Positions 2,682-55,269 of a stretch of 64,000 nt of DNA are shown here, piece by piece. Numbering within the stretch: the stretch's first letter is position 1; each line of letters opens with the position of its first letter. Under the pieces are notes generated by a model, which was not told the DNA's origin, made no database searches, and saw nothing but the letters and a program-made list of their open reading frames with translations. Source of the stretch: Rhizorhabdus histidinilytica (lineage in GTDB: Bacteria; Pseudomonadota; Alphaproteobacteria; Sphingomonadales; Sphingomonadaceae); NCBI RefSeq assembly GCF_900167915.1, contig NZ_FUYM01000003.1:62001-126000 (forward strand), written 5' to 3'. Position numbers and translations under genes: made by a program.

Positions 2682-2971
2682 TGCTCTTTCAGGTCCATAT
2701 GCACGTCAACGTGCCGACCCATATCCCCGCCGCCGAGTTCGACGAGATCAAGGCGCGCGAGAAGGCCTATTTCCAGGAACTCCAGAAGGCGGGCAAATGG
2801 CGCCACATCTGGCGCCATGTCGGCCAATATTCGAACACCAGCATCTTCGACGTGGAGAGCAACGCGGCGCTCCACGACCTGCTCATGGGGCTTCCCCTGT
2901 ACCCGTTCATGGACATCGAGGTCATTCCGCTCTGTCGGCATCCCTCGTCCATCCATGACGACGACCGCTGA
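2681..2971 (+). CDS. catC: Muconolactone delta-isomerase
   Basis: This 96-residue protein matches the usual size and sequence of CatC, a small ferredoxin-fold enzyme that isomerises muconolactone to 3-oxoadipate enol-lactone. Recognisable stretches are MLFQVHMHVNVPTHIP at the N-terminus and WRHVGQYSNTSIFDVES in the middle, then LPLYPFMDIEV. Its ATG overlaps the catB stop by one base. catA follows after 29 bp with its own purine-rich ribosome-binding site (AAGGAGAGAC). The order B-C-A is the common arrangement in proteobacterial cat operons. Confidence 0.95.
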   Translation: MLFQVHMHVNVPTHIPAAEFDEIKAREKAYFQELQKAGKWRHIWRHVGQYSNTSIFDVESNAALHDLLMGLPLYPFMDIEVIPLCRHPSSIHDDDR

Positions 2972-3000
2972 ACGACATTCATTTCCCAAGGAGAGACGTG

Positions 3001-3933
3001 ATGGCATCCGAACTGGTGCAAAGCCCTGAAATCCAAGCCTATCTCGATCGCATTTCCGGTCTCGACCAGCCCGGCGGCGATCAGCGCATGAAGCAGATTC
3101 TCCGCCGCATCGTGTCGGACCTGTTCACCACCATCGACGATTTCGACGTGAGCGCCGAGGAATTCTGGGCAGCGCTGCACTTCATGCAGCAGGGCGCGCC
3201 CGAGTTCGGGCTGATCGCGCCGGGCCTCGGCTTCGACCATTTCCTCGACGTCCGCATGGACATCGCCGACAAGAAGGCCGGCACCACCGGCGGCACCCCG
3301 CGCACCATCGAGGGCCCGCTCTACATCCCCGGCGCGCCGATCGAGAAGGGCCGCGCCCGCCTCGACGACGGCGAGGACACCGGCGAGGTGCTGATCATGC
3401 GCGGCACCGTGAAGGACCTCGACGGCAAGCCGATTGCCGGCGCGATCGTCGACGTCTGGCACGCCAACACCAAGGGCGGCTATTCGGGCTTCGACCCGTC
3501 GCAGAAGCCCTATAACAACCGCCGCCGCATCGAGACCGCAGCCGACGGCAGCTATGTGTTCCGCAGCGTCGTCCCCTCGGGCTATTCGGTTCCGCCGCAG
3601 GGCAGCACCGATCGCCTGCTCCAGTCGGTCGGCCGCCACGGCAACCGCCCGGCGCACATCCACTTCTTCGTGTCGGCGCCGGGCTATCGCCATCTGACGA
3701 CGCAGATCAACATCGACGGCGACCCCTATCTGCACGACGACTTCGCCTTCGCGACCCACAACGACCTCATCCCCGAAGTCGTCCGCCAGGAGGACCCGGA
3801 GCAGATCCGCGCCGAGCAGCTCAACGGGCCGTTCAGCCAGATCGATTTCGACTTCACTCTGCAGAAGGCGGCCGACGCGGCCGACACCGAAGTCATGGCC
3901 CGCAACCGGGCTCCGGCGCCCGCCGGCGCCTGA
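3001..3933 (+). CDS. catA: Catechol 1,2-dioxygenase
   Basis: This 310-residue intradiol dioxygenase cleaves catechol to cis,cis-muconate using a non-heme Fe(III). The four iron ligands are visible: Y161 (GGYSGFD), Y195 (SGYSVPP), H219 and H221 (RPAHIHFF). An N-terminal helical dimerisation and lipid-binding domain of about 100 residues precedes the catalytic beta-sandwich, as is usual for catechol dioxygenases. The ATG at 3001 is chosen; a GTG directly before it (2998) is also possible. AAGGAGAGAC upstream is a good ribosome-binding site. This protein differs clearly from the second intradiol dioxygenase at 37471-38319. Confidence 0.95.
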   Translation: MASELVQSPEIQAYLDRISGLDQPGGDQRMKQILRRIVSDLFTTIDDFDVSAEEFWAALHFMQQGAPEFGLIAPGLGFDHFLDVRMDIADKKAGTTGGTPRTIEGPLYIPGAPIEKGRARLDDGEDTGEVLIMRGTVKDLDGKPIAGAIVDVWHANTKGGYSGFDPSQKPYNNRRRIETAADGSYVFRSVVPSGYSVPPQGSTDRLLQSVGRHGNRPAHIHFFVSAPGYRHLTTQINIDGDPYLHDDFAFATHNDLIPEVVRQEDPEQIRAEQLNGPFSQIDFDFTLQKAADAADTEVMARNRAPAPAGA

Positions 3934-3961
3934 CGACCGGGACCGACCTCTCATCACCTTT

Positions 3962-3989
3962 GCGGGCGGGTCCTCATCGACCCGCCCGC
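3962..3989 (+). terminator. GC-rich hairpin between catA and pcaD
   Basis: GCGGGCGGGTC (3962-3972) pairs perfectly with GACCCGCCCGC (3979-3989) around a 6-nt loop, followed shortly by TTTT. It looks like an intrinsic terminator or attenuator inside the operon and could lower pcaD expression relative to catBCA. Confidence 0.6.
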
Positions 3990-4016
3990 GGCATTTTCGC
4001 GAAGAGTGAAACGACC

Positions 4017-4805
4017 ATGACCGACCAGGGATTCGCCAGTGTTGGCGATGGCTGCCGCATCGCCTGGCGGCTCGACGGGCCTGCGGACGCCCCCGTGCTG
4101 ATGCTCTCCAACTCGCTCGGCACCACAATGGACATGTGGCTGCCGCAGCTTCCCGCGCTGACCGAACGGTTCCGCGTGCTGCGCTACGATCAGCGCGGTC
4201 ACGGCGCTTCGGATGCGCCGGCCGGCGGCTACAGCCTCGACCGGCTCGGCCGGGACGCGGTCGAACTGCTCGACGCGCTGGGTTTGGAGACGGTCGATTA
4301 TTGCGGCCTGTCGCTCGGCGGCATGACTGGCCAGTGGCTGGGTGTCCACGCGCCGGATCGCTTCCGGCGCATCGTCCTCGCCAACACCGCTGCCTATATG
4401 GGCCCGCCCTCGGGCTGGCAGGCGCGGATCGGCGTGGTGCTCGACAAGGGCATGGGGGCGATCGCCTCGGCGGTGCTCGAACGCTGGTTCACCCCCGAAT
4501 TCCTGCCGGCATCGCCCGAGGTCCAGACGACGGTCGAGGCCTGGCTGCTCGCCACCAGCCCCGGCGGCTATGCCGGCTGCTGCGCCGCGATCCGCGACAT
4601 GGACCTGCGCCCCGTCATCGGCCTGATCCGCACGCCGGTGCTGGTGATCATCGGCGGCCGCGACCCCGCCACCCCGCCCGCCCAGGGCGAGGAGATCGTC
4701 GCCGCGATCCCGGGCGCCAAGAGCGTGACCTTCGACGCCGCCCACCTGTCCAATATCGAACAGCCGGAGAAATTCGCGGCGGCCCTGCTGGACTTCCTGG
4801 CCTGA
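4017..4805 (+). CDS. pcaD: 3-oxoadipate enol-lactonase
   Basis: This 262-residue alpha/beta hydrolase is expected to open 3-oxoadipate enol-lactone to 3-oxoadipate, the last step specific to the ortho pathway. The catalytic triad is S99 in GLSLGG, D216 in IGGRDPATP and H243 in AAHLSN. The ATG at 4017 is chosen; in-frame sequence upstream runs through the hairpin and is unlikely to be coding. It is the fourth gene in line after catB, catC and catA. No CoA-transferase (PcaIJ/CatIJ) or thiolase gene is visible nearby, so the lower pathway must be encoded elsewhere. Confidence 0.92.
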   Translation: MTDQGFASVGDGCRIAWRLDGPADAPVLMLSNSLGTTMDMWLPQLPALTERFRVLRYDQRGHGASDAPAGGYSLDRLGRDAVELLDALGLETVDYCGLSLGGMTGQWLGVHAPDRFRRIVLANTAAYMGPPSGWQARIGVVLDKGMGAIASAVLERWFTPEFLPASPEVQTTVEAWLLATSPGGYAGCCAAIRDMDLRPVIGLIRTPVLVIIGGRDPATPPAQGEEIVAAIPGAKSVTFDAAHLSNIEQPEKFAAALLDFLA

Positions 4806-33570: not shown

Positions 33571-35790
33571 TTATTGCCGCCCTTGGTGGGTCAAGACGAC
33601 GCCGGGGACGATATCGCCGTCGCGCTGCTCAAGCTCGGCTTTCAACGGCAGACGGGTTCGCCACTCACCGGTGGCGTCATGGATCGCGTTGACGATCGCC
33701 GGGCCCACACAGATCACCCCTGGCTCACCGACCCCCCCCGGCGCAGCGGTGGATTGCATCACATGCACCTCGACCTCGGGCATCTCGTGGATACGCGTCG
33801 GTTCATAGGCGTCGAAATTGCGCTGCTCGATCTCGCCGTCCTTCAGCGTGATCCGATTGCGCAGCACCGCCGACAGCATGAAGCCCGTGCCGCCTTCGAA
33901 CTGGGCGCGGATATTGTCGGGGTTGATAGGGATACCGCAATCGACCGCGACGACGATGCGCTCGACCTTCACCAGGCCGCGCTCGACTTTCACCTCCGCA
34001 ACCACCGCGAACATCGAACGATGCGATGCATGGACGGCGATCCCCCGTCCGCGCCCCTTGCCCAGCGGTCGTCCCCAATCGCTCTTTTCCGCGGCCAACT
34101 TCATTGTCGCGACGAGTCGCGGGTCCTTCTCGATCAGCCGGGTCCGATAAGCGACGGGGTCGACCTTGGCGAGATGGGCAAGCGCGTCGATCATCACTTC
34201 GACGACATGCGCCGTGTGCGAATGGGCGACCGAACGCCACCAGGTCACCGTCACCTGCTCGTCGCTCTGATACGCAAGGGTTCTGAAATTGGGCGCCGTA
34301 TAGGGATGATCGATCAGCCCGCTGACCGTCGTCACGTCGAGCCCGTCGTGGATGGTGTGGGGCGCATAGGCCGTTCCCTTGGTGATCGACTTGCTGACCA
34401 CCACATGGTCCCACGCCGTGATCTCGCCGGCAGCCCCTATGCCGACGCGGGCCTTGTGATAGCTCATCGGGCGAAAGAGACCGGCCTCGAAATCATTCTC
34501 CCGGGTACGGAAGACCAGGATCGGCTTGTCGCCGCCATAGGCCTTCAGCACCTCCGCCGCCTCCACCACATAGTCGGAAAGGGGATCCGACCGCCGACCG
34601 AAGGAACCGCCGGCCAGCAGCGTGTTGATGATCACCCTGGCCGGGGGAACACCCATGATCCCCGCGACCGCATATTGATCGAGCGATTGCGACTGACTGG
34701 CCGTCCATAGCTCGATCTCGCCGCCCGCCCGACGTTGGATCACCGTTGCCAGCGGCTCCAGGGGAGCATGGGCGAGATAGGGGAATTCGAATTCGAACTC
34801 GATGGTCTTCGTTGCATCCGCGAAGCCCGCCGCCACGTCGCCCCGCTCCGCCGCCTTCAACGTGGCGGTAGCGGCGGCCGCCTTGAAATCGGTCATGATC
34901 TGGTCGGTCGAACGATTTTCGGCGGCGCTGAAGTCCCATTGCGCGGAGATAGCCTTTTGACCCTTGATCGCTGCCCAACTGTTGCTGGCGATGACGGCTA
35001 TCCCCATCGGGACCGCCAGCACGTCGATCACGCCCCTGACCTTGCGAGCCGCCTCGGCATCGAAGGAGGCCAGCTTGCCACCGAAGCGTGGCGAACGTTG
35101 TACCGTCGCGAAAAGTTGGCCCGGCTGGCGCATATCCAGCGTGTAGACCGCCTTGCCGTTCGTCTTGTCGGCAACATCCAACCGCCGCAGGTCCTGCCGG
35201 CCGATCAGGGTAAAGGCGCGGACATCCTTCAGGACAGGCTGCTCCGGCACCGGAAGGCGGGCCGCCGCCACCGCGACCTCGCCGAAACCGACGCTGCGCC
35301 CTCCGGCACGGTCGACGATCCGTCCACCACGCACCTCTATCGCCTCCGGGGCGGTACCCCAGGCGGCAGACGCAGCAGCGACGAGCATGGCACGCATCGC
35401 CGCCGCCGCGCGACGCAGTTGCATCCAGCTATTCGACGTCGAGTTGGACTCGCCGGTGCCCTGCAGCGGCCCGAAGAAGAGATTGTTATAGAGCTTGCCG
35501 TTGGCCGGTGCGAAGGCGAAGCGCATCTGCGCCCAATCGGCGTCGAGTTCTTCGGCCACGATCGTGCACAGGCCAGTGGCGACCCCCTGCCCCATTTCCA
35601 GATGCTTGATCTGGACGGTGACCGTACCGTCATCGGCAATCGAGATGAAGGTGTTGGGCTGAGGCGCAGCGGGCGGCGGCCCATGCTCGACCTGCGCCGG
35701 CGCCGGATCGAACGGAAGATAGGTCGCAAGGACGAAGGCTCCCGCCGACTTGAGGAAACCGCGCCTGCTCGTCGCTGCCGTCATGCCCAT
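33571..35790 (-). CDS. Molybdopterin-binding hydroxylase large subunit (isoquinoline 1-oxidoreductase beta / IorB type)
   Basis: A 739-residue xanthine-oxidase-family large subunit with a twin-arginine signal (TSRRGFLKSAG, residues 7-17), so it is probably exported folded to the periplasm. It has the molybdopterin-binding domains of the IorB class (MGQGVATGLCTIVAEELDAD, GGSFGRRSDP, and the GGVGEPGVICVGPAIVNA loop with the expected catalytic Glu). IorB-type enzymes hydroxylate N-heterocycles or oxidise aldehydes. It is the last gene of a likely operon with the dioxygenase, SDR and BKACE. No Fe-S partner is adjacent; the only one seen is 19 kb away at 54764-55228. Confidence 0.88.
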   Translation of the reverse strand: MGMTAATSRRGFLKSAGAFVLATYLPFDPAPAQVEHGPPPAAPQPNTFISIADDGTVTVQIKHLEMGQGVATGLCTIVAEELDADWAQMRFAFAPANGKLYNNLFFGPLQGTGESNSTSNSWMQLRRAAAAMRAMLVAAASAAWGTAPEAIEVRGGRIVDRAGGRSVGFGEVAVAAARLPVPEQPVLKDVRAFTLIGRQDLRRLDVADKTNGKAVYTLDMRQPGQLFATVQRSPRFGGKLASFDAEAARKVRGVIDVLAVPMGIAVIASNSWAAIKGQKAISAQWDFSAAENRSTDQIMTDFKAAAATATLKAAERGDVAAGFADATKTIEFEFEFPYLAHAPLEPLATVIQRRAGGEIELWTASQSQSLDQYAVAGIMGVPPARVIINTLLAGGSFGRRSDPLSDYVVEAAEVLKAYGGDKPILVFRTRENDFEAGLFRPMSYHKARVGIGAAGEITAWDHVVVSKSITKGTAYAPHTIHDGLDVTTVSGLIDHPYTAPNFRTLAYQSDEQVTVTWWRSVAHSHTAHVVEVMIDALAHLAKVDPVAYRTRLIEKDPRLVATMKLAAEKSDWGRPLGKGRGRGIAVHASHRSMFAVVAEVKVERGLVKVERIVVAVDCGIPINPDNIRAQFEGGTGFMLSAVLRNRITLKDGEIEQRNFDAYEPTRIHEMPEVEVHVMQSTAAPGGVGEPGVICVGPAIVNAIHDATGEWRTRLPLKAELEQRDGDIVPGVVLTHQGRQ

Positions 35791-35826: not shown

Positions 35827-36723
35827 CTACGCGAGCCCCAGGATCGCACGCGCTTCAGCGGGCTTCGCGACACGGCTGCCCAGCGCTTCGACGATGATTC
35901 GTGCCCTTTCGACCAGGGCGGCGTTGGAGGGGGCCAGCACGCCACGATCCAGATAGACCGAGTCCTCAAGACCGACACGCACATGCCCGCCCGCCAGCAA
36001 GGACTGCGCCACGGCCGGATAGGCCGCGCGGCCGATGCCGAACGCCGTGAACGCACTCCCGGCCGGTAGCAGCCCCCGCGCGTAGAGAATGGTTTCCGGG
36101 CTCGGCTGGAAGCCGTACTTCACCCCCATCACGAAGGAACAGAGCGGCGCCGGCTCCAGCGTTCCGTCGGCCACCAGATCCGCCAGCAGCGCGATATCGC
36201 CGGAATCGAACAGCTCGATCTCGGGTTTGACGCCGGCTTCCCGGATTACCCTAGCCATCCGCCTGATGTTGGCGGGGGTGTTGATCACCACTGCCCTGCC
36301 GGAGTTCATCGTATTGAGATCCAGCGTGCAGATCTCGGGCCGGAGTTCACCGATATGCTCGACCCGTAGTTCCGGCCGCAGCAATGTCGTCCCCGGCCCG
36401 GCACGCGCCGGGTCATCCTCCGAAGGGACATAGCGCCCGCCGGGCCCGGTGGTGACGTTCAGGATCAGGTCTGGATTGGCTTGGCGAATGCGGTCGACCG
36501 CCTCGCTATAATGAGCCAGTTCCATCGATGGCGCGCCGGTGTCGGGATGGCGAACATGGAGATGGACGATGGCGGCGCCGGCGCTTGCCGCTTCCAGCGC
36601 GGACTCGGCGATCTGCTTCGGCGTGATCGGCAGATATGGCGTCTGGTCGGGCGTGGTCAGGTTGCCGGTGACGGCACAGGTGACGATCGCCGGCGTCTGG
36701 ATATCGAAGGATCGACCGCTCAT
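35827..36723 (-). CDS. Beta-keto acid cleavage enzyme (BKACE) family protein
   Basis: A 298-residue (beta/alpha)8 protein of the 3-keto-5-aminohexanoate cleavage enzyme family. The Zn-binding motif VHLHVRHP and the C-terminal Glu in VGLEDSVYL are present; NVTTGPGGRY is typical. BKACE enzymes react a beta-keto acid with acetyl-CoA to give acetoacetate and a new CoA ester. In this operon, after a hydroxyquinol-type dioxygenase and an SDR, 3-oxoadipate is the obvious candidate substrate, which would yield succinyl-CoA directly. That assignment is inference. The start overlaps the SDR stop (ATGA); the upstream frame inside the SDR is not coding. Confidence 0.88.
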   Translation of the reverse strand: MSGRSFDIQTPAIVTCAVTGNLTTPDQTPYLPITPKQIAESALEAASAGAAIVHLHVRHPDTGAPSMELAHYSEAVDRIRQANPDLILNVTTGPGGRYVPSEDDPARAGPGTTLLRPELRVEHIGELRPEICTLDLNTMNSGRAVVINTPANIRRMARVIREAGVKPEIELFDSGDIALLADLVADGTLEPAPLCSFVMGVKYGFQPSPETILYARGLLPAGSAFTAFGIGRAAYPAVAQSLLAGGHVRVGLEDSVYLDRGVLAPSNAALVERARIIVEALGSRVAKPAEARAILGLA

Positions 36724-37460
36724 AGCGCCCGCCCGCCGTCGACCTGGACGATGTGCCCGGTCGAATAGGTCAGGTGCGTACAGCAGGCAATGATCGCACG
36801 CGCCACCTCCTCGGCGGACGCGACCCGCCCCAGTGGAGTGTTCGCTGCCACCTTGGCCGAGAAATCCGCGCCGCGACCGGGCACGAAGCTGGTATCCACC
36901 ACGCCGGGCGAGACCGCCAGCACCCGCACCTCGGGCGCCAGGACGCGCGCAAGCGCCTTGGTCATCACATCTATGCCGGCTTTCGCGGCGCAATAGGCGA
37001 TGTTCGACCCTATCCCCGTGAAGGCGGCTATCGAGGACAGCGATACCACCACGGCGTCGCCGGATTTGCGCAGCAACGGCGCCATCGTCCGGATCGTCGA
37101 GAACTGCGCACGCCAGTTGGTCTGCATCATCGAGTCGATGATCTCATCGGTCAGGGCATCGAGATCGGCATGCGGGATGGAATGGGTGAAACCCGCGGCG
37201 TTGATCAGGACGGCGATCCCACGCGGATCGTCCGCCAGCCGGTCGCGCAGCGCTTCGAGCGCGGCACTGTCGGTGATCTCCAGCCCGCTGAAGCCATGCC
37301 GCCCGGGCAGGCTACGGATCAGGGCCTCGCCCCGCTCGCGGGCCTGTTCGCGATCGACCAGATGGATATCGGCACCGAGCGCGGCGAGTTGCTTGGCGGT
37401 TTCGCTGCCGATGGCGCCGGTGGCGCCGAAGACGATCGCGACCTTGCCTTCGAGAGTCAT
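36720..37460 (-). CDS. SDR-family oxidoreductase
   Basis: A 246-residue classical short-chain dehydrogenase/reductase. It has the nucleotide-binding motif VFGATGAIGSETAK, NAAG, catalytic Ser-Tyr-Lys in SLSSIAAFTGIGSNIAYCAAK, and ends in VDGGRAL. The acidic residue after strand 2 (VDREQ) suggests NAD(H) preference. In the operon it lies between the ring-cleavage dioxygenase and the BKACE gene, so it may reduce maleylacetate or a related keto acid, or oxidise a hydroxy intermediate. Its stop overlaps the BKACE start. Confidence 0.88.
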   Translation of the reverse strand: MTLEGKVAIVFGATGAIGSETAKQLAALGADIHLVDREQARERGEALIRSLPGRHGFSGLEITDSAALEALRDRLADDPRGIAVLINAAGFTHSIPHADLDALTDEIIDSMMQTNWRAQFSTIRTMAPLLRKSGDAVVVSLSSIAAFTGIGSNIAYCAAKAGIDVMTKALARVLAPEVRVLAVSPGVVDTSFVPGRGADFSAKVAANTPLGRVASAEEVARAIIACCTHLTYSTGHIVQVDGGRAL

Positions 37461-37470
37461 GTCCGGTCCT

Positions 37471-38319
37471 TCATTCGATGGGGGGGGTCGGCAGGATCGC
37501 TTCGCCGGGAACGAGGACGAAACGGCGATGGAGGCGGAAGCCGGCGTCGGGATGATCCGGATCGATCGGGCGATAGCCGCCGACCAGCGCAGGTTTCACG
37601 CCGAACACGGCGTCACTGGCCAGATACTCGTCGTCATCGACGAACATCTGGGTGATAAGCGTCGTCCTGCCGGGCTTGTACAGCATGATGTGGAGATGCG
37701 CCGGCCGCATCGGGTGGCGGCCGAGCGCCCGAAGCAGTCCGCCTACCGGCCCATGGGTCGGCACCGGATAGCCTGCCGGCATGATGGAGTGAAAAGCGAA
37801 ACGGCCCTGGACATCCGTCATGAAGCGGCCGCGCAGGTTCATCTCTGCCTGATCGGGGTCCTGGTTTTCGTAGAGTCCGACGGGCGAGGCCTGCCAGACA
37901 TGCACCTCGACGCCTTCTATGGGCCCGCCGTCGGGATCGACGGCCTCGCCCTCGACGTAGAGCGGTACGCCACCCGTGCCCGTCTGATCGATGGTGGCGC
38001 CGTTCGCCAACAATGGCGCGCCCATCCGCCAGAAGGGACCGAGCAGCGCCTCGTCGTCATATTGGCTTTCGCTGCAGACCAGCGACGACAGGCCGAGCAC
38101 GTCGGAGAGGAGGACAGTTTCGTTATGCGTCGCGCTGTTGGTCGCGACGACCGCGTTCAGGAATTCGATTCCGACATGCATTTCCTCGGGCGTCAACCGG
38201 ACGTCGCGTGCGAAATCATGCAGGTGCCGCACCAGCGAAGTCATGACCTCGCGCAGCCGCCCATCATCGCCACCGAATGTCGCGAGCACGGCCTTCGTTA
38301 TATCGGTTTCCAAGATCAT
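37471..38319 (-). CDS. Intradiol ring-cleavage dioxygenase, hydroxyquinol 1,2-dioxygenase-like
   Basis: A 282-residue intradiol dioxygenase with all four Fe(III) ligands: Y150 (GLYENQDP), Y184 (AGYPVPTHGPV), H208 and H210 (RPAHLHIML). The pattern GPVGGLLRALGRHPMRPAHL, and the later ASDAVFGVK, resembles hydroxyquinol 1,2-dioxygenases more than catechol dioxygenases such as catA at 3001. The expected reaction is 1,2,4-trihydroxybenzene to maleylacetate. The ATG at 38319 has GTAGGAC upstream. A LacI-type operator lies 29 bp upstream. It heads the operon dioxygenase-SDR-BKACE-IorB. Confidence 0.88.
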   Translation of the reverse strand: MILETDITKAVLATFGGDDGRLREVMTSLVRHLHDFARDVRLTPEEMHVGIEFLNAVVATNSATHNETVLLSDVLGLSSLVCSESQYDDEALLGPFWRMGAPLLANGATIDQTGTGGVPLYVEGEAVDPDGGPIEGVEVHVWQASPVGLYENQDPDQAEMNLRGRFMTDVQGRFAFHSIMPAGYPVPTHGPVGGLLRALGRHPMRPAHLHIMLYKPGRTTLITQMFVDDDEYLASDAVFGVKPALVGGYRPIDPDHPDAGFRLHRRFVLVPGEAILPTPPIE

Positions 38320-38384: not shown

Positions 38385-38879
38385 TCACGCAAGTGGGACC
38401 AGCCATGCGGCAACGATCGCGCCCAGGAAGAAACCGCATCCGAAGACGAAATGCGCCATCAGCGTCATGATTCGAATACGACCGGGAAACGGCGTTTTCG
38501 CCGCCGCTATGCCATGGCCCAGCGCAGGCATGATCACGAACCAGGCGAAGACGACGGTGCTCAACCCCATCGTCAGCGCCGGCAGCGGAGTCGGCCGCTC
38601 CGCCCAGTCGCGCCCCATGATCAACAGCAACGCGCCCGCGAAGACGATGCCGGTGATATAATGCGCGGTGGTACCCAGCAGCCGCTCACCCGTGCCGAAC
38701 GTCGGCGGCCCCGGCTGAGCGGGCACCGGTCGTTCGACAAACGGCGTCAGCCAGCGGCCCAGGATCGCCCAGTTGGGTGCGCGGACGCCGAAGAACCGCT
38801 CCAGCGCCCAACCCCACAGGTCGAACAGCAGCACGGCAACCACGCCCACCACGATGGCGCGCGCCACGATATCCCCCAT
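38385..38879 (-). CDS. DUF2938-like small membrane protein
   Basis: A 164-residue protein with four hydrophobic segments (AIVVGVVAVLLFDLWGWALE, TAHYITGIVFAGALLLIM, LSTVVFAWFVIMPALGHGIA, LMAHFVFGCGFFLGAIVAAW), the layout of the DUF2938 membrane family. The function is unknown. The ATG at 38879 has AAGGA upstream at 8 nt; the ATG at 38888 is an alternative. It lies between the LysR gene and the dioxygenase operon on the same strand, with the LacI-type operator just beyond its stop codon. Confidence 0.75.
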   Translation of the reverse strand: MGDIVARAIVVGVVAVLLFDLWGWALERFFGVRAPNWAILGRWLTPFVERPVPAQPGPPTFGTGERLLGTTAHYITGIVFAGALLLIMGRDWAERPTPLPALTMGLSTVVFAWFVIMPALGHGIAAAKTPFPGRIRIMTLMAHFVFGCGFFLGAIVAAWLVPLA

Positions 38880-38910
38880 GATCATCATCCTTGCGCCGCC
38901 CGGCGCGGCT

Positions 38911-39813
38911 TCAGGCCAGGGTGAAATCCCGGCCGGTTTCGGAAAGCATCTCGACGAAGCTCTGGGTGGCGGGCGACAGCGTCCGCCGCGCCGGCGTGAT
39001 CACCGAGATGGTGAAGCGCGCGGGTGGATCGACCAACGGGCGCGCCACGACGTTGAAGGCCGGCAATATCCGCGTCGCCCAGGATGGCCAGATAGCCACC
39101 CCCAACCCCGCGCCAACCATGCCGAGCGAGGTGAACATCTGCCGCACCTCGATAGCCGGCGGCACATGGACGCCGGCCAGCCGCAGCCGCACGTCCAGGG
39201 ACCGCCGCACGTCTGGCGATCCCGCCAGTCCGACGATCGAAACGTCGCGCAAGTCCTGCGACCGTATCTCCCTGCGCTGCGCCAACGGGTGGGTCGACGG
39301 ACAGATCAGCACCAGTTCCTCGTCGATCAGCCGCCTGCTGTGGACATCTTTCAGCTCGCCGGCGAAGGTGCCGAGCCCGCAGTCCGCCTGGCCCGATGCC
39401 ACCCGCGCGACGATCTCCTGCGGCGTGATGTCCTCCACCATCACCACGATGTTCGGATAGGTAGCGCGGAAGCGGGCGATCACCGACGGGAGCATCAGTG
39501 CCGCCACCACCGGCGGCGCCGCGACCGTCACACGTCCCCGCTTGCGCGCGACCAGTTCGTCCGCGCTCGTCAGCGCATTCTCCACCTCGATGAGAATCCG
39601 ACGGGCGTGCGCCATGAACTCCTCGCCCGCCTCGGTGAGCTGAACGGTCCGCGTCGTCCGCTCCAGCAGGCGGACGCCCACCGCGGTCTCCAACTCGCGC
39701 ATCAGCACCGACAACGACGATTGGGTCGAATTGACCGCCGTCGCGGCCGCGGTGAAGCTGCCGGTGTCGACGATCGCCACGAAGGCCCGGATCTGCTTGA
39801 GCGTCACGTTCAT
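38911..39813 (-). CDS. LysR-family transcriptional regulator
   Basis: A 300-residue LysR regulator with an N-terminal helix-turn-helix (MNVTLKQIRAFVAIVDTGSF, then STQSSLSVLMRELE) and the usual effector-binding domain. The ATG at 39813 fits family N-termini. It lies between the amidohydrolase gene and a membrane protein gene, all on the minus strand, and may regulate the dioxygenase operon together with the LacI regulator. That would allow two signals, one for the parent compound and one for the ring-cleavage substrate; this is inference. Confidence 0.88.
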   Translation of the reverse strand: MNVTLKQIRAFVAIVDTGSFTAAATAVNSTQSSLSVLMRELETAVGVRLLERTTRTVQLTEAGEEFMAHARRILIEVENALTSADELVARKRGRVTVAAPPVVAALMLPSVIARFRATYPNIVVMVEDITPQEIVARVASGQADCGLGTFAGELKDVHSRRLIDEELVLICPSTHPLAQRREIRSQDLRDVSIVGLAGSPDVRRSLDVRLRLAGVHVPPAIEVRQMFTSLGMVGAGLGVAIWPSWATRILPAFNVVARPLVDPPARFTISVITPARRTLSPATQSFVEMLSETGRDFTLA

Positions 39814-39867: not shown

Positions 39868-41259
39868 TCAGCAGCATGCGATCCTCGCTTCGATCGCCGG
39901 GGTATATTCCGCCTCGGCAAGGATGCGCTCGATCGACTGGAGCAGTTGCTCCCGACGCCGGGCGAGGGTGGTTTCCGAATAGAGCAGCCTGCCGCCGCGC
40001 TTGCGCAGTTGTCCGCCGACGAACACCGTATCGACGTTCGATGGTGCGGATTGCCACACCACTGACTGCACCGGCTCATGCACCGGGAACATGTTCATCG
40101 CGTTGGCGTCGATCAGGATGACGTCAGCCTGCTTGCCGGGCGTCAAACTGCCGATCCGATGCTCCATGCACAACGCGCGCGCGCCGCCGATCGTGGCATA
40201 GCGCAGGATATCCTCGGACGGCACCGGCAGCTTCGTCAACGGTGGCAAGCCTTGCGCCTCGTTGATCCGATGCTCCATTGCACGCTGGAACAGCATCGAC
40301 AGCCGCATTTCGCTGAACATGTCGCCATTGGCGATCGGGATGCTGTCCACGCCCAGCGACGGCATCGCCCCCAAGGTGCGCAGCCGGCCGGTCAACGGAT
40401 CCGCGGCATGGACATGCAGTTCGATCATCGACGTGACGGTGACCGACGCCCCCGAATCGACGACGATCTTCAGCTCTTCCTCGTCCAGATAATTGCCGTG
40501 GACGACGTTGTGGGTCGCATCGAGCAGACCAAGCCGCGCCGGGATACGGAAGCCCTCGGGCGATAGCCGATCCTTCAGCCGCCGCGCCGCATGCGAGCTG
40601 GACATCAGCCCCAGCTCCTTGACCATTCGGAAATCATGCTCGACCACCTCGGGCACCGAGAATTGCGGCCCCAGGATCGCGGCGGCCAGCGTCACCAGCC
40701 GATCGTCGGAGGTGAACCGCCCGCGGCGCAACGCCTCCAGCCGCTCGCGCGGATGGGGCTTGTGGGTGAAGGGGATGCCATCCTCGCCCGTCATCGGCTT
40801 GGCCGAACCATGGCCGAATACCGCGCGGATTCCGACCTCCTCCAGTGCATCGACCGAACGTTCGGCATGCTCCAGACTGGTGATGTCGTGGCACCAGTCG
40901 AAGATAGTCGTCACGCCGCCGTTGAGCTGTTCGAGCGCACCGAACAACGTACCGATATAATTGTCTTCCGGCTGGAAACGGGTGGCAAGGTTGCCGTGCA
41001 TGACCCGGTGATAGTCGGGGCCGGTCCAACCTCCCCCGATCGACCGCAACCCGCTCTGCCAGCTATGGAGATGCGCGTTGATCAGACCGGGCATCACGAT
41101 CATGCCCCGAGCATCGACCACCTCGGCATCCCCCGCCTCGACATGGGGGCCAACCGCCACGATCCGCTCGCCCTCGATCAGGACGTCGCCCTTCGGCAAC
41201 ACGCCGATCGCGGAATCGACGCTGACGATGACACCGCCACTGATGAGGGTCCGGCTCAT
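39868..41259 (-). CDS. Amidohydrolase of the TRZ/ATZ (SsnA-like) family
   Basis: A 463-residue cytoplasmic metal-dependent hydrolase. The N-terminal metal motif is PGLINAHLHSW; later metal and catalytic residues are expected near HGNYLDE and IANGDMFSE. The family removes amino groups or halogens from heterocycles (cytosine, atrazine, guanine, adenosine analogues). The C-terminal half keeps the family segment YATIGGARALCMEHRIGSLT followed by PGKQADVILI. The substrate is unknown but is likely to carry an exocyclic amine or similar leaving group. The start overlaps the stop of the SnoaL-like gene upstream (ATGA). Confidence 0.88.
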   Translation of the reverse strand: MSRTLISGGVIVSVDSAIGVLPKGDVLIEGERIVAVGPHVEAGDAEVVDARGMIVMPGLINAHLHSWQSGLRSIGGGWTGPDYHRVMHGNLATRFQPEDNYIGTLFGALEQLNGGVTTIFDWCHDITSLEHAERSVDALEEVGIRAVFGHGSAKPMTGEDGIPFTHKPHPRERLEALRRGRFTSDDRLVTLAAAILGPQFSVPEVVEHDFRMVKELGLMSSSHAARRLKDRLSPEGFRIPARLGLLDATHNVVHGNYLDEEELKIVVDSGASVTVTSMIELHVHAADPLTGRLRTLGAMPSLGVDSIPIANGDMFSEMRLSMLFQRAMEHRINEAQGLPPLTKLPVPSEDILRYATIGGARALCMEHRIGSLTPGKQADVILIDANAMNMFPVHEPVQSVVWQSAPSNVDTVFVGGQLRKRGGRLLYSETTLARRREQLLQSIERILAEAEYTPAIEARIACC

Positions 41260-41777
41260 GCAAGGCTCGCGAAATGGGCGTAGGAGGGATCGTCGCGCAA
41301 CACATCGGCGGCATGGACATATTCGACCTGGGCATCGAATTCCTCGCGGCCCATCACCCTGATCCGGCGATGGTCCTTCAACGTGAGACGGTTGACCAGG
41401 CCCCAGCGGCCATCGCGACGCTCCCAATTGTCGAGATAGCGCGAATGGGTGTCGCGATCCTCGACCTGGCCATCCGCCCGGCCCACGATCAGATGCGCGG
41501 TGGCAGTCGTCTCGCTCACCGCCCTGTCGCCCTTCACCTCGATCAGGACGTTGCCGATCGTGTGGCGGTTGTAGAGCATGTCGGTGTGCGCCTTCATCAG
41601 CCAGGCGACGAAATCGTCCCAGCTACCGTCGAACATGCCGAGGAATTTCATCGTCGCGCCGGGATGGGCGATCGAGCGCAACAGATCGGGATCAAGCCGA
41701 TCGAGCCCCCGCGGATAGCTATAGATGAGATCCCTGACCGCCGCCTTCGCGATCAACTGCTCCAAGACCTCGCCCAT
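41256..41777 (-). CDS. SnoaL/NTF2-like family protein
   Basis: A 173-residue protein of the NTF2-like fold with the SnoaL_4-type pattern: AKAAVRDLIYSYPRGLDRLD near the N-terminus, RHTIGNVLIEVKGDRAVSET in the middle and DNWERRDGRWGLVNRL later. Such proteins act as small dehydratases, isomerases or ring-hydroxylase helpers in aromatic and steroid degradation. It is the first gene of a minus-strand group and shares an ATGA overlap with the following amidohydrolase. The promoter must lie in the 187-bp AT-rich gap before ridA. Confidence 0.82.
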   Translation of the reverse strand: MGEVLEQLIAKAAVRDLIYSYPRGLDRLDPDLLRSIAHPGATMKFLGMFDGSWDDFVAWLMKAHTDMLYNRHTIGNVLIEVKGDRAVSETTATAHLIVGRADGQVEDRDTHSRYLDNWERRDGRWGLVNRLTLKDHRRIRVMGREEFDAQVEYVHAADVLRDDPSYAHFASLA

Positions 41778-41964: not shown

Positions 41965-42354
41965 ATGGCCGTGCATGAGCGCATCCAACCAGAAGGCGTG
42001 TTCGAACCGGTGAAGGGCCTCTATTCCCAGATCATCGTCACCGAGGCCACCAAACGCTACGAAATCGCCGGCACGCTCGCCTATGATGCCGACGGCAATC
42101 TTCCGGACGGGCTTGCGGATCAGTGCCGCAATGTCATGGAGAATATCGACATCTCGCTGAAGGCGGTGGGATTGACCCCGGCCAATGTCATACGGATGCG
42201 CATCTACACGCTGGATATGGACGCCTTTCTGAAGGAGGCGATCGGCATCGTGTTCGGCTATTTCGGCGACACCCGTCCGACCTCCACGCTGGTCGAGATC
42301 AAGCGGCTCGCCAATCCCAGGATGCTGGTCGAGATCGATCTGACCGCCGCCTGA
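41965..42354 (+). CDS. RidA family protein
   Basis: A 129-residue RidA/YjgF/YER057c/UK114 protein. Family members hydrolyse reactive enamines or imines to ketones; some, in aminophenol and nitrobenzoate pathways, are 2-aminomuconate deaminases. The C-terminal region, RPTSTLVEIKRLANPRMLVE, is typical, including the conserved Arg-Pro and the Glu near the end. GGAG lies just before the ATG, directly after a LacI-type operator. It leads the operon ridA - exported amidohydrolase - CocE-type hydrolase. Its presence suggests a nitrogen-containing intermediate. Confidence 0.88.
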   Translation: MAVHERIQPEGVFEPVKGLYSQIIVTEATKRYEIAGTLAYDADGNLPDGLADQCRNVMENIDISLKAVGLTPANVIRMRIYTLDMDAFLKEAIGIVFGYFGDTRPTSTLVEIKRLANPRMLVEIDLTAA

Positions 42355-42394: not shown

Positions 42395-43498
42395 ATGAGC
42401 TGTGCCTGCCCGCCGCGTCGCGATTTCCTCCAGACCGTCGCCGCGGCCGCCGGCGTCGCCATCGCCGCGGGCAGCTCCGCTGCGGCCGCCGCCAAACCCG
42501 AAGAGCATGCCGGCCACGCCCTGGCATCGCCGGCCGGCAGGGCCGCCGCGATCGACACCCATGCCCATCTCTGGCCGACCGAATATCTCGACGAGCTCGA
42601 ACGGTTGGGTGACAAGAGCACCGCCATCGCCCGCAACATGCGCGCCACCGACAGCGAGGCCGATCTGGCGCACCGGCTGGCCAATATGGATGCCGCCGGT
42701 GTGCGCACCCAGTTGCTGTCACCGACGCCGCAAGTGCCGCAGATGGGCGACCCCGCCGACGCGGCCAAGGTCGCTCGAATGATCAACGACGTCTATGCCG
42801 GCCTGATCCGCAAATATCCGGGCCGGTTCCTGGCCTATGGCGCGGTGCCGCTGCCACATGTCGACGAGGCGATCAGGGAAGCGCGCCGCTCGATCACCGA
42901 ATTGGGCTTCAAGGGCGTCGCGATCAACACGCTGACGGCAACGAGGATCTCCGTCGCCGACCCCGCTTTCCTCCCATTTTACGAGGAGATGAACCGGCTG
43001 GGGGCAATCGTCTACATCCACCCCACCGGCTGCGCCGCCAACAGCTCGATGATGAAGGACTTTCGCCTGGAATGGGTGGTCGGCGCTCCGATCGAGGACA
43101 GCCTCGCCGCGCTCCACCTGTTGAAGGCCGATATCCCCCACAAATTCCCGAACATCCGCTTCCATGTCGCCCATCTGGGTGGGGCGCTTGCCTTCATGAT
43201 GCAGCGGATCGAGGATAATTTCACCGACTGGAAGGCGTTCCCGCGCAGCCCCTGGGCGGAGTTGCGGAAATTCTGGTTCGACACCGCCAACTTCCACGTG
43301 CCGGCGCTGCTGTGCATGGATCAGACCTTCAGTTCGGACCGCCTGCTGCTGGGCAGCGATTTTCCCTATTTCCAAGATGAAAAATACACCCGTGCGGTGA
43401 GCTACGTGCAGAAATCGGGCCTGTCGCCGGATAAGGTTCGCGCAATCCTGAGCGGCAACGCCGCGAAGCTGCTGGGTCTCGGCGCCAAACACGGATGA
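42395..43498 (+). CDS. Exported amidohydrolase (ACMSD/resorcylate-decarboxylase-like, Amidohydro_2)
   Basis: A 367-residue protein with a twin-arginine-like signal (PPRRDFLQTVAAAAGVAIAA), unusual for this superfamily. The metal site includes H56 and H58 (DTHAHLW), IYIHPTGC, FHVAHLGGAL and the catalytic Asp in LLGSDFPYF. Relatives include aminocarboxymuconate-semialdehyde decarboxylase and non-oxidative aromatic acid decarboxylases, as well as hydrolases. The reaction here is not predictable. Its stop overlaps the start of the CocE-type gene (ATGA). Confidence 0.85.
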   Translation: MSCACPPRRDFLQTVAAAAGVAIAAGSSAAAAAKPEEHAGHALASPAGRAAAIDTHAHLWPTEYLDELERLGDKSTAIARNMRATDSEADLAHRLANMDAAGVRTQLLSPTPQVPQMGDPADAAKVARMINDVYAGLIRKYPGRFLAYGAVPLPHVDEAIREARRSITELGFKGVAINTLTATRISVADPAFLPFYEEMNRLGAIVYIHPTGCAANSSMMKDFRLEWVVGAPIEDSLAALHLLKADIPHKFPNIRFHVAHLGGALAFMMQRIEDNFTDWKAFPRSPWAELRKFWFDTANFHVPALLCMDQTFSSDRLLLGSDFPYFQDEKYTRAVSYVQKSGLSPDKVRAILSGNAAKLLGLGAKHG

Positions 43499-45463: not shown

Positions 45464-46465
45464 ATGGGGGCTTCCAACGGGCCGCAACGCAGGCTGCGTA
45501 TTCATGAGCGAGCAACGACGGTCGAGGATGTCCGCCTGACGGTGGAAGAAGGTGGGATCGGGGGGCTGAGCGATCCCGAGCTGATCGTCGAGGTCGCCTG
45601 CGCGGGGGTCAATCCCAGCGACGCCAAGGCCGCTATCGGGATGATGCCCTATGCTGTTTGGCCGCGCACGCCGGGCCGCGATTTTGCGGGCCGCGTCGTC
45701 GATGGCCCAAGCGACCTGCTTGGCCGCGAAGTGTGGGGATCGAGCGGCGACCTCGGCATCCGTTGCGACGGTACCCATGCCACGCATATCGGTCTCCGCC
45801 GCGACTGCGTTGCCTTCAAACCCAGCACCGTCTCGCTGATCGAGGCGGGAGCGGCGGGTGTGCCCTTCGTCACCGCCTGGGAAGCGCTGTCGCGCATGAC
45901 CCTGCCGACCAGGGGAGAGACCGTGCTGGTGTTCGGTGCCAACGGCAAGGTCGGCCAGGCCGCCATCCAGATGGCAACGATGCTGGGAGCCCGTGTCATC
46001 GGCGTGGCGCGCGGCGATGAAGGCTATATTGGCCATGCCAACAGCCCGATCGAGATGATCCATTCCGATAATGAGGACGTGCCAGAGCGGGTGAAGGAAC
46101 TCACCGGCGGCATCGGCGCTCCTATCGTTTTCAATACCGTCGGCAGTCCCTATTTCGCCGATGCCGCGCTATGCTTGGCGAAGCATGGCCGGCTGATGAT
46201 GATCGGCACGATCGACCGGGTGGTACCCTTCGACATCCTGCAATTCTACCGCGGCCAGCACCGCTATTTCGGCATCGACACGCTGGCCCTCGACACCAGG
46301 ACGACGATCGGGGTGCTCGCCACGCTGACCCCGCATTTCGAGGCCGGGCTACTCAAACCCTTCCCGGTGGTCGATCGGGCGATCTTCGGGCTCGAGGACG
46401 CTGCCGAAGCCTATGCCAAGGTGCTGCGATCGGATCGCGATCGGGTCGTGCTGGTGCCGCGCTGA
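45464..46465 (+). CDS. Zinc-free MDR-family oxidoreductase (quinone oxidoreductase-like)
   Basis: A 333-residue medium-chain dehydrogenase/reductase. It has the N-terminal GroES-like fold (CAGVNPSDAK, TPGRDFAGRVV) and a nucleotide-binding GANGKVGQAAIQ motif. The catalytic zinc cysteine and structural zinc cysteines are absent, which points to the quinone oxidoreductase/enoyl reductase branch. It probably reduces a conjugated double bond or quinone with NADPH. A LacI-type operator/promoter lies 100 bp upstream, and a cupin gene follows by one base. Confidence 0.88.
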   Translation: MGASNGPQRRLRIHERATTVEDVRLTVEEGGIGGLSDPELIVEVACAGVNPSDAKAAIGMMPYAVWPRTPGRDFAGRVVDGPSDLLGREVWGSSGDLGIRCDGTHATHIGLRRDCVAFKPSTVSLIEAGAAGVPFVTAWEALSRMTLPTRGETVLVFGANGKVGQAAIQMATMLGARVIGVARGDEGYIGHANSPIEMIHSDNEDVPERVKELTGGIGAPIVFNTVGSPYFADAALCLAKHGRLMMIGTIDRVVPFDILQFYRGQHRYFGIDTLALDTRTTIGVLATLTPHFEAGLLKPFPVVDRAIFGLEDAAEAYAKVLRSDRDRVVLVPR

Positions 46466-46466
46466 C

Positions 46467-46811
46467 ATGCATCTGAGGCGCTTCGCGGACGCCCTCCCCT
46501 ATCAGGCGGTCGGACATGAAGGGATGCGCTGCCTGCGCCTCCAGGGCATGGACGCAGGGCCCATGGACAATTTCTGGATGGCCGCCTCGGTGATCGAACC
46601 GGGCGGCCGGATCCTGCCGGGCGCGTCGCCGCTCGAAAAGGCCTATGTCGTTCTGGAAGGGGAGGTGACGATCAGCGGTGCCGAAGGCCCGATGATCCTG
46701 TCACTCTGGGACAGTTGCCGGATCGCCCCGCACGAGACCCGCGCCGTGCACAACCATGCCGAGGACCGCGCGGTTCTCATGCTGGTGATGGCGACGCCGC
46801 CGTCCACCTGA
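46467..46811 (+). CDS. Cupin-domain protein
   Basis: A 114-residue single-domain cupin with the pattern PGGRILPGASPLEKAYVVLE, followed by HETRAVHNHAEDRAVL. The first cupin motif is degenerate, because the usual HxH is missing, so metal binding may rely on the second motif only. Small cupins in catabolic operons are often isomerases or accessory dioxygenases, or sensors. The ATG at 46467 lies one base after the MDR stop, so the two genes are co-expressed. A hairpin follows before the convergent lacI gene. Confidence 0.8.
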   Translation: MHLRRFADALPYQAVGHEGMRCLRLQGMDAGPMDNFWMAASVIEPGGRILPGASPLEKAYVVLEGEVTISGAEGPMILSLWDSCRIAPHETRAVHNHAEDRAVLMLVMATPPST

Positions 46812-46860: not shown

Positions 46861-47910
46861 CTATCGGATCTTGCGCGGCGGCGCGGTGGATTCCCGCACG
46901 ATCAGCGACGGCGTCAACACCACGTTGCGCTGGACCGTCTCATCGCCCTGGATGCGCGACAGCAACAGGCTGGCCGCCTGCCGGCCGATCTCCTGATGGC
47001 TGATCCGCACGGTGGTGAGGGGGGGCGAGATCATGTCGACCAGCGGCATGTCGTTATGCCCGATCACGGAGATATCGCGGGGGCAGTTGACACCCTTCTC
47101 GCGAAGGATGTCGTAAACCCCCAGCGCGAGCAGATCATTGGCGGCGACGATCGCGGTTACCCGATCGTTGCCCGCCAGCAGTTTCTCAGCCGCCCGAGCC
47201 CCCTCTTCCCGGGAATATGACTTCGTGGGTTCGATCGACGGCTCGATGCCCAGCTTGTGCGAGTTGATCGCCTGGGTGAAGCCCAGCCGGCGCAGATGGC
47301 CGGTCGATGTCGTCTCCGGACCCGCGACATGGGCGATATGCTTGTGGCCGAGTTCGACGAGATGCTCGACGGCCAACTGCATTGCGAGACCGTCATCGGA
47401 GACCACCGCCGACAAACGCCGCTTCTCCTCGGCACGGTTGACGAGCACGGCCGGCAGTTCCTGCTCGACGCAGAAGGCGACCAGCGGGTCATCGCGCCGG
47501 ACGGTCGCAAGGATCAGCCCGTCGATTCGCCGCGCGACGAATTGCCGGGTCAGTTCGAGCTGGCGCGCCGGCTCGTCGCCGACGTCGGCGATCACCAGCG
47601 AATAGCCGGCGCTTGCCAGCCGCTCGGCCGCACCGCTCAGGATCATGGAGAACAGCGTGTTGGAGATGTTCGGGATCAACGCCCCGATCAGGCGCGAACG
47701 CCCGGTTCGCAGCGCCGCTGCCAGAAGATTCGGCCGATAACCCAGATCCTGGGCCACCTGCAGCACGCGCGCGACGACATCGTCAGCCACCAGCGATCGG
47801 GTCGCCGGGTTCAGCGCGCGCGATACGGTCGAAGGATGGACCCCTGCTTCGCGCGCCACATGCTTGAGGGTGAGGTTGGATCCGGGGCCAGCCTTGCTTC
47901 TGCCGTTCAT
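46861..47910 (-). CDS. LacI-family repressor of the catabolic block
   Basis: A 349-residue LacI/GalR-type regulator. It has an N-terminal helix-turn-helix and hinge (LKHVAREAGVHPSTVSRAL, then LGYRPNLLAAALRTG) and a periplasmic-binding-protein-like sensor domain with GLILATVRRDD and DISVIGHNDMP. The ATG at 47910 with GCGAGGA upstream is chosen; a 74-residue upstream extension is not LacI-like. Eight palindromes near TTGCAATCGATTGCAA, centred on a CG as expected for LacI-family sites, lie in front of the surrounding transcription units, including one upstream of this gene. It is the obvious candidate to bind them. Confidence 0.92.
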   Translation of the reverse strand: MNGRSKAGPGSNLTLKHVAREAGVHPSTVSRALNPATRSLVADDVVARVLQVAQDLGYRPNLLAAALRTGRSRLIGALIPNISNTLFSMILSGAAERLASAGYSLVIADVGDEPARQLELTRQFVARRIDGLILATVRRDDPLVAFCVEQELPAVLVNRAEEKRRLSAVVSDDGLAMQLAVEHLVELGHKHIAHVAGPETTSTGHLRRLGFTQAINSHKLGIEPSIEPTKSYSREEGARAAEKLLAGNDRVTAIVAANDLLALGVYDILREKGVNCPRDISVIGHNDMPLVDMISPPLTTVRISHQEIGRQAASLLLSRIQGDETVQRNVVLTPSLIVRESTAPPRKIR

Positions 47911-54763: not shown

Positions 54764-55228
54764 CTAGAGCGGCCGAACCAGCGCTCGGGCGGCATCGTGG
54801 ATCGCCGCGCGAATGCGGACATATGTGCCGCAACGGCAGATATTGCCCGCCATCGCCAGATCGATGTCATGATCGCCGGGCGTCGGATTTTCGCGTAGGA
54901 GCGCAACCGCGCTCATGATCTGGCCCGACTGGCAATAGCCGCATTGCGGTACATCGCGGGCGACCCAGGCCTCGCGCACCCGTTCCGCCTCGGGCCCCTC
55001 CACCCGTTCGATTGTCGTCACCTCGCCCTGCACATCTGCGACGGGGATCGAGCAGGCACGGATCGGCTGTCCTTCGATATGGACCGTGCAGGCGCCACAC
55101 ATCGCGATACCGCAGCCATATTTGGTGCCCATCAGCCCAAGCTCATCGCGTAGCACCCACAGGAGCGGCGTATCGGCTTCGGCATCGACTTCATGGACGC
55201 TGCCGTTGACCTTGATCGAATAGCTCAT
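54764..55228 (-). CDS. [2Fe-2S] subunit of a Mo hydroxylase (isoquinoline 1-oxidoreductase alpha / IorA type)
   Basis: A 154-residue protein with the two [2Fe-2S] clusters of xanthine-oxidase-type small subunits: a plant-type cluster (C39, C44, C47, C59) and a C-terminal cluster (C96, C99, C131, C133). IorA has the same size. There is no signal peptide, so it may be exported together with the twin-arginine large subunit. The matching large subunit is at 33571-35790, 19 kb away, instead of adjacent as usual. A LacI-type operator lies 41 bp upstream, shared with the divergent MFS gene. Confidence 0.9.
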
Positions 55229-55269
55229 CGTACCCTTCCAAGCCCCCGCCAACATTATGCGGATTTTTA

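Follow-up and report, generated by a model that had tools for sequence, protein, structure and literature searches.

Enzymes of the BKACE family have been proposed to end the beta-ketoadipate route in place of PcaIJ and PcaF. According to the available text of the respective papers, this role was assigned to the product of kce, which lies between pcaG and pcaB in Methylobacterium (PMC8963497 and PMC12379598, both citing Bastard 2014), and to that of a CatM-regulated COG3246 gene of R. eutropha H16 (PMC6449761); the proposed reaction converts beta-ketoadipate and acetyl-CoA to succinyl-CoA and acetoacetate. Beta-ketoadipate also appears among the G3 substrates in the accessible part of PMC4922564. 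A BKACE that ends the beta-ketoadipate route is thus an already published concept, for other gene clusters. Here we describe a cassette of three genes in a stretch of 64,000 nucleotides from Rhizorhabdus histidinilytica (G000:C36:62001-126000, hereafter the window), encoding an intradiol ring-cleavage dioxygenase (P0003), a classical short-chain dehydrogenase/reductase (SDR, P0002) and a BKACE (P0001). The literature searched gave, among the matches listed, no publication on the combination of a hydroxyquinol-type dioxygenase, an SDR and a BKACE. The cassette is real, conserved and catabolic, and is unstudied as far as the literature searched shows. We consider the chances about even that the trio forms the core of a conserved lower pathway for rings with the 1,2,4-trihydroxybenzene pattern, in which the triol would be converted via a beta-keto C6 diacid to a C4-dicarboxylyl-CoA and acetoacetate.

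The three genes are tightly packed on the minus strand (35827-38319), an arrangement that the first-pass annotation had described and that open reading frames and Pfam matches confirm. The dioxygenase gene (37471..38319, 282 aa; PF00775, 135 bits, and PF04444, 77 bits) is separated by a gap of 10 bp from the SDR gene (36720..37460, 246 aa; PF13561, 141 bits, and PF00106), whose stop codon shares the sequence ATGA with the start codon of the BKACE gene (35827..36723, 298 aa; PF05853, DUF849). This overlap reads tcat on the plus strand (36720-36723). All three proteins lie well above the Pfam cut-offs, with 325.9 bits against 24.8 for the BKACE.

The dioxygenase, SDR and BKACE genes occur together in 43 distinct loci of Alpha- and Betaproteobacteria, including the window, which rules out a chance neighbourhood. 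Because a locus was selected for its likeness to the BKACE or the dioxygenase of the window and entered the count only with all three genes, the set is not a random sample; no two loci share identical proteins, and about ten loci from the family of genome G445 are close kin, with BKACEs at least 95% alike. The trio is contiguous and co-directional, with the order kept and small gaps, in 41 of the 43 loci. The exceptions are L188, where two inserted genes interrupt it, and L250, where the BKACE gene lies 5.4 kb away. A dioxygenase scan of genome contigs gave 134 relatives, and 5 of the best 80 had an SDR and a BKACE directly behind them; plasmid records, relatives and further genomes raised the complete trios to 18 (window included). 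BKACEs at E ≤ 1e-100 were found in 41/394 genomes of the family of G443 and in 68/398 of the family of G445, and 40 loci fetched from these matches contained 27 complete trios, or 25 after the removal of two repeats. L252 (the same plasmid region as L109) and L254 (the same contig as L052) were removed before the 43 were counted. The remaining 13 fetched loci lack the set, save L251 and L272, which hold all three genes, moved or cut, and were excluded from the 43. A loss of the SDR in L272 was rejected, as part of this gene remains on the far side of the LacI gene, truncated by the end of the stretch. In L047 and L064, which were likewise not counted, 8 kb separate the dioxygenase from a BKACE of 33-34%, and the SDR gave no match.

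A class sample gave BKACEs at E ≤ 1e-70 in 68/385 genomes, and the cassette is present in 3 of the 14 loci fetched from this sample and the genus search. Five of 14 genomes of the genus have a BKACE at E ≤ 1e-60; the cassette was found in the window's genome (G000) and in G008, and no dioxygenase stands beside the BKACE in the stretches fetched from G003, G009 and G013. For BKACEs at E ≤ 1e-100, even sampling within the order of G447 gave 1/399 genomes, namely G447 itself, and the order of G187 gave 4/23, two of them new.

The closest solved relatives of P0003 are PnpC (3n9t) and the hydroxyquinol dioxygenases 8r2x and 1tmx, and P0003 reaches the cut-off of no NCBIfam model. The Fe ligands Y150, Y184, H208 and H210, which form the two-Tyr/two-His set of intradiol enzymes, are invariant in 43/43 cassette members, as are Asp73, Arg98 and the ALLGPFxR motif. 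Asp73 corresponds to Asp83 of 1tmx, which we take to be a mark of hydroxyquinol dioxygenases; its position is occupied by Gly in the sister rows linked to hpaH and by Pro in the window's catechol dioxygenase. Most sister dioxygenases have Gly there, while L006 and L008 retain Asp. Trees of the dioxygenases and BKACEs were built with 18 of the 43 cassette loci, leaving out repeat rows. In the dioxygenase tree, cassette and sister enzymes form a clade of 31 rows (99/99) apart from seven hydroxyquinol dioxygenases. The cassette enzymes themselves are not one clade, since sisters branch inside (three changes; p 0.07 for one clade in the approximately unbiased test). Arg98 is also common to the sister clade linked to hpaH/hpaI. 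Judged from its sequence, P0003 is supported as a putative hydroxyquinol-type intradiol dioxygenase in the broad sense, belonging to a separate clade.

Some sister dioxygenases stand in other settings. Three plasmids carry them with hpaH-type hydratase and hpaI-like aldolase genes (L190, 8986-11447; L191, 8001-10492; L192, 6986-9792), two of these near formyl- or methylene-tetrahydrofolate one-carbon genes, and the plasmid enzyme may be an intradiol-type dioxygenase that acts on rings resembling gallate or pyrogallol. In L008 (4086-8879), a cassette-type dioxygenase lacks both partners, SDR and BKACE; a shikimate/quinate-dehydrogenase-like gene lies about 3 kb away, and some genes appear by eye to be of the TRAP transport type. 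The second dioxygenase of genome G443 (L272, 8918-9622) reads in two frames.

P0001 belongs to a long-loop branch of the BKACEs, and its closest solved relative is BsfD of flavophos biosynthesis (9zsc). As described in the available text of PMC12871164, BsfD has Phe166 in place of the Tyr of canonical BKACEs, and Arg91, located in a loop insertion, comes near the phosphonate only once the molecule flips. Phe172 and Arg97 of P0001 correspond to these residues and are present in 43/43 cassette members. The zinc site is also retained, with E253 in 43/43 and H54/H56 in all 42 rows that cover them; we take the HxH motif and the Glu to be the zinc ligands of BKACEs. Among the non-cassette relatives, Phe occurs in 30 and Arg in 26 of 34 distinct sequences (41 and 37 of 45 rows); 11 of the 45 rows are repeats with both residues, and the whole set was selected for similarity to P0001. 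One relative, in L134, has Phe at the position of 172 and Asp at that of 97, and its gene adjoins an L-carnitine dehydrogenase gene (461.8 bits against 414) and a stretch resembling the thioesterase part of carnitine 3-dehydrogenase. Since Phe is found in 30/34 distinct relatives, one of them beside L-carnitine dehydrogenase, we rejected the idea that Phe172 alone excludes BKACE chemistry, and the Tyr criterion may not define the whole BKACE family. Because Arg lies near the phosphonate in BsfD and Asp stands beside L-carnitine dehydrogenase in L134, residue 97 plausibly matches the charge of the substrate's distal group, and the invariant Arg97 may recognise a distal negative charge. The 18 cassette BKACEs fall into a clade of 23 rows (99/95), in which BsfD groups with four cassette members (96/91); a quick BKACE tree agrees on this nesting. 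The available text of PMC12871164 states that Tyr is present in all BKACE sequences and that Arg91 is unique to BsfD; by alignment, both statements fail in this branch, where the cassette clade generally has Phe and Arg.

The SDR has the catalytic set N115, S143, Y156 and K160 (N-S-YxxxK) in 43/43 loci, and the residues after beta-2 vary across the alignment. The usual targets of classical YxxxK SDRs are C=O or CH-OH groups. The conserved set further contains, on the plus strand, a reductase of the medium-chain dehydrogenase/reductase (MDR) superfamily that resembles PIG3/quinone oxidoreductase (45464..46465; PF00107) and a small cupin (46467..46811; PF07883, weak and below the cut-off), both core genes, and on the minus strand a LacI-family regulator (46861..47910; PF00356, PF13377). 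The MDR was found in 41/43 loci, the cupin in 39/43 and a LacI homologue in 33/43, with some loci cut by contig or stretch ends; the MDR count does not include the homologue of L052 (36-37%, opposite strand). The best match of the MDR is TIGR02824 (quinone oxidoreductase PIG3), below the cut-off, and 15 aligned rows have GVNP[SA]D and GRD, not zinc-ligand motifs, at what we take to be the ligand positions of zinc alcohol dehydrogenases. Since the set has two reductases, the MDR may be the one that carries out the C=C step; as a sequence-based candidate for C=C reduction, it fits at least as well as the SDR. The role that the first-pass annotation gave to the SDR, the reduction of maleylacetate to 3-oxoadipate, is weakened to this extent. 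The HxH motif is absent from 15 aligned cupins; a role as a diketone-cleaving enzyme like Dke1 was therefore rejected as unlikely. The sole NCBIfam match of the cupin, below the cut-off, is NF050094, a model of 113 positions named "beta-D-galactosidase", a name that looks misplaced for so short a cupin.

From these genes we infer the following reactions, substrates and working directions of the SDR and the MDR. The dioxygenase would cut the ring between two adjacent hydroxyls, and owing to the hydroxyl at position 4 the product would be a beta-keto C6 diacid, either maleylacetate or a relative with substituents. A BKACE substrate arises only if a hydroxyl stands beta to the new carboxyl. The SDR, the MDR (45464) or both would adjust C=C or C=O bonds, and the BKACE would then transfer the acetyl end of this diacid to acetyl-CoA, releasing acetoacetate and a C4-dicarboxylyl-CoA (succinyl-CoA in the case of 3-oxoadipate). 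An ordinary 3-oxoacid CoA-transferase would activate the acetoacetate for a thiolase. Since acetoacetate in turn depends on these two enzymes, the net balance equals that of the classical route. The description of the locus as a CoA-transferase-free end of the beta-ketoadipate route is therefore misleading and should be dropped; the window's genome also has a PcaI-type gene (C11:365087-365746, 385 bits against 128.5) and a PcaF gene (C11:366616-367815, 671.5 bits against 597).

Genes near the cassette in other loci fit this pathway. CoA-transferase A and B of the 3-oxoacid type, malic enzyme and DctA adjoin it in L005 and L105; malic enzyme stands beside it in L052 and an annotated phosphoenolpyruvate (PEP) carboxykinase in L188. 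These neighbours point to acetoacetate and a C4 acid as the products. Carboxylate transporters (DctA, TRAP and the tripartite tricarboxylate type, TTT) lie near some cassettes and ABC types near others, and a TTT-type binding protein is present in 12 of the 25 later loci. The remark that no iron-dependent maleylacetate reductase is seen here holds: P0002 is an SDR, and the window's genome has no match at E ≤ 1e-30 to the maleylacetate reductase of L108, weaker iron-dependent alcohol dehydrogenases not having been sought. Six of the ten whole cassette genomes searched gave no maleylacetate reductase match. G008 has two clusters of maleylacetate reductase, dioxygenase and CoA-transferase genes on C3 (1934-4560 and 176926-179621), and its cassette, on C1, is without this reductase. 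In L108, about 4 kb separate a 66% BKACE of the same clade from a dioxygenase (41%) and a gene annotated as maleylacetate reductase, and L111 has, close to the cassette, an iron-dependent alcohol dehydrogenase 52% like that reductase. The window also contains an ordinary catechol ortho-cleavage cluster, catB-catC-catA-pcaD (1518-4805; TIGR02534, TIGR03221, TIGR02439 and TIGR02427 above the cut-off), with no CoA-transferase gene seen beside it.

Several observations weigh against a lower pathway of this kind or against its narrower version in the first-pass annotation. No activity is known for any cassette member. Val107, Phe108, Val113, Ile199 and His237 of 1tmx are replaced by Leu, Leu, Arg, Val and Gln in 43/43 cassette dioxygenases. 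Val107, Phe108 and Ile199 are presumably pocket residues, and P0003 has Leu92, Leu93 and Val186 in their place (43/43), not the hydroxyquinol-type residues; Leu at position 108 also occurs in two of five solved relatives (8r2v, 8r2w). The label hydroxyquinol 1,2-dioxygenase-like thus holds for the domains, the Fe ligands and Asp73, but not for these five positions or for the clade. On the BKACE side, Phe172 (43/43) stands where Tyr145 of 2y7d, held to be catalytic, would be expected, and P0001 scores 183.8 bits against the 350-bit cut-off of NF053568, the curated model of 3-oxoadipate BKACEs. The proposed action of the BKACE on 3-oxoadipate accordingly keeps its family and some context for a C4 diacid and acetoacetate, but not this model. 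Plain 3-oxoadipate would also not need a BKACE, because PcaI and PcaF are encoded in the genome. A maleylacetate reductase was matched in 4/10 whole cassette genomes and in 5/5 plasmid records (one, W03, weakly at 31%). Malic enzyme neighbours the cassette in 3/43 loci and CoA-transferase in 2/43, with no match to either in any of the 25 later loci, and 30/43 loci lack a gamma-carbonic-anhydrase-like partner. BsfD, according to the available text of PMC12871164, does divergent chemistry and not BKACE cleavage. Finally, in L261-L264 and L267, which have no dioxygenase, a BKACE 60-62% like that of the window lies near an SDR homologue (43-45%) encoded on the opposite strand; these loci also hold TTT transport and IorA/IorB-like genes.

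These points bear differently on the detailed forms that the pathway could take. The route that the first-pass annotation had drawn leads from hydroxyquinol to maleylacetate by the dioxygenase, to 3-oxoadipate by the SDR, and to succinyl-CoA and acetoacetate by the BKACE with acetyl-CoA; the MDR would then be a hydroxybenzoquinone reductase. It agrees with the SDR gene directly between the other two in 41/43 loci, with the six whole cassette genomes lacking a maleylacetate reductase match, with the pairing in L108 of a related BKACE with a dioxygenase and this reductase, and with the CoA-transferase beside the cassette in L005 and L105, whose kind uses succinyl-CoA and acetoacetate as substrates. 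Classical SDR chemistry, however, concerns C=O and CH-OH, whereas the MDR suits C=C reduction; PcaI and PcaF are already present, the NF053568 score is too low, and the dioxygenase falls outside the hydroxyquinol group, so that this exact route seems doubtful. Its frame is nevertheless partly supported: it is sound but too specific. The roles may instead be moved, with the MDR reducing the C=C bond, the SDR the second keto group derived from a ring with a fourth oxygen or a carboxyl, and the BKACE forming malyl-CoA or a C4-CoA with some other substituent. The presence of two reductases (the SDR in 43/43 loci by the counting rule, the MDR in 41/43), the invariant Arg98 shared with the hpaH/hpaI sister clade (two of whose plasmids have tetrahydrofolate one-carbon genes), and, in some loci, a neighbouring gene for malic enzyme, PEP carboxykinase or a hexapeptide (gamma-carbonic-anhydrase/PaaY-like) protein would suit such a scheme, yet there is no direct evidence for such a substrate and C4-to-C3 enzymes fit succinate equally; we regard it as unlikely. 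As for the beta-keto acid itself, PcaI and PcaF in the genome and the two reductases mildly favour a more oxidised relative of 3-oxoadipate, and the L108 neighbourhood mildly favours 3-oxoadipate.

The SDR could also act upstream, turning an alicyclic alcohol or dihydrodiol into the triol, or a beta-hydroxy into a beta-keto acid as in deoxyribonate catabolism, with no role between ring cleavage and the BKACE. The loci L261-L264 and L267, the precedent of an SDR with a BKACE for deoxyribonate (in the available text of PMC6365646) and the lone L008 dioxygenase near a shikimate/quinate-dehydrogenase-like gene are in line with this. The genes upstream of the cassette vary by locus, yet the SDR is present wherever a cassette-type dioxygenase and a BKACE above 50% co-occur (the 43 loci, L251 and L272), which better fits a lower-pathway step, and an upstream role appears improbable. 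Chemistry of the BsfD type, an acetyl transfer without cleavage that yields a beta-diketone, would make the operon biosynthetic or a dead-end detoxification. P0001 and BsfD share Phe172 and Arg97, and BsfD nests inside the cassette clade, but Phe is not diagnostic in this branch, many cassettes accompany uptake systems, and a cupin without metal ligands gives no sign of Dke1-like diketone cleavage; we consider this chemistry highly unlikely. A lower pathway for 1,2,4-trihydroxybenzene-pattern rings can be joined with the moved roles and with BsfD in a single scheme, to which we give a small chance. A ring with one oxygen or carboxyl beyond hydroxyquinol, such as a tetrahydroxybenzene or trihydroxybenzoate, would be cleaved by the Arg98 dioxygenase clade to a dioxo C6 diacid, the MDR and SDR would reduce the C=C bond and the second C=O, and the Arg97 BKACE would form malyl-CoA or another substituted C4-CoA and acetoacetate; BsfD would have been recruited from the BKACE clade, keeping the Arg for a phosphonate instead of a carboxylate.

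The genes around the cassette differ in how far they accompany it. A gene for an IorB-like subunit of a molybdopterin dehydrogenase that has a signal-like RRGF start (33571..35790, minus strand; PF02738, PF20256) begins 36 bp past the BKACE stop and is perhaps the last operon gene in the window's genome. IorB or IorA homologues lie near cassettes in L153, L189, L269, L270, L236 and L249, and the 16 kb fetched from the G008 locus contain none. A gene for an IorA-like [2Fe-2S] subunit is located about 19 kb from the IorB-like gene (54764-55255, minus strand), with no IorB-like neighbour noticed. On the other side of the trio, the minus strand encodes a DUF2938 membrane protein (38385..38888; PF11158; same position in G008/L112, 52% identity), a LysR-type regulator (38911..39813; PF00126/PF03466; L112 homologue 56%), the amidohydrolase AMH1 (39868..41259; NF006056/PRK08204 subfamily, TRZ/ATZ-like, 547.6 bits against 391) and a SnoaL-like protein (41256..41777; PF13577; L112 homologue 66%). 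AMH1-type homologues occur in 9/43 loci, window included, that of L188 at 26%. The plus strand continues with a RidA-family protein (41965..42354; PF01042), whose family is also encoded no more than a few kb from the cassette in L112, L236, L249 and L258, an amidohydrolase-2 protein with a twin-arginine-like start (42395..43498; PF04909; L112 homologue 65%) and, between this gene and that of the MDR, a CocE-like hydrolase.

Compared with the known systems, the cassette combines familiar parts in a distinct way. P0003 has the two-domain intradiol architecture, the Fe ligands and the Asp83 equivalent in common with hydroxyquinol 1,2-dioxygenases (1tmx, 3n9t PnpC, 8r2v/w/x), but it reads LLGPFxR, not VFGPF or VLGPF, with Val for Ile199, Arg for Val113 and Gln for His237, and its operon has no maleylacetate reductase. 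Unlike the pca/cat-linked BKACEs and members of NF053568, P0001 belongs to the long-loop Phe branch, stays below the cut-off of that model, and is encoded with a hydroxyquinol-like dioxygenase and an SDR instead of pca/cat genes. Arg97/Arg91, Phe172/Phe166, the long loop and the clade are common to P0001 and BsfD, whereas BsfD, in the available text of PMC12871164, acts on a phosphonate and belongs to a biosynthetic cluster. This suggests a role for Arg97 of long-loop BKACEs in sensing the charge at the substrate's tail, and an origin of an enzyme of phosphonate antibiotic synthesis from this catabolic BKACE clade. The deoxyribonate route, as given in the accessible part of PMC6365646, is alike in that an SDR makes a beta-keto acid for proposed BKACE cleavage and an IorAB-like dehydrogenase acts upstream, but its substrate is a sugar acid and it has no ring-cleavage dioxygenase. 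The clusters of maleylacetate reductase, dioxygenase and CoA-transferase genes, such as the two on C3 of G008, presumably share the task of bringing hydroxyquinol-type rings into central metabolism; they use an iron-dependent maleylacetate reductase and a CoA-transferase, whereas the cassette would use its SDR/MDR and BKACE.

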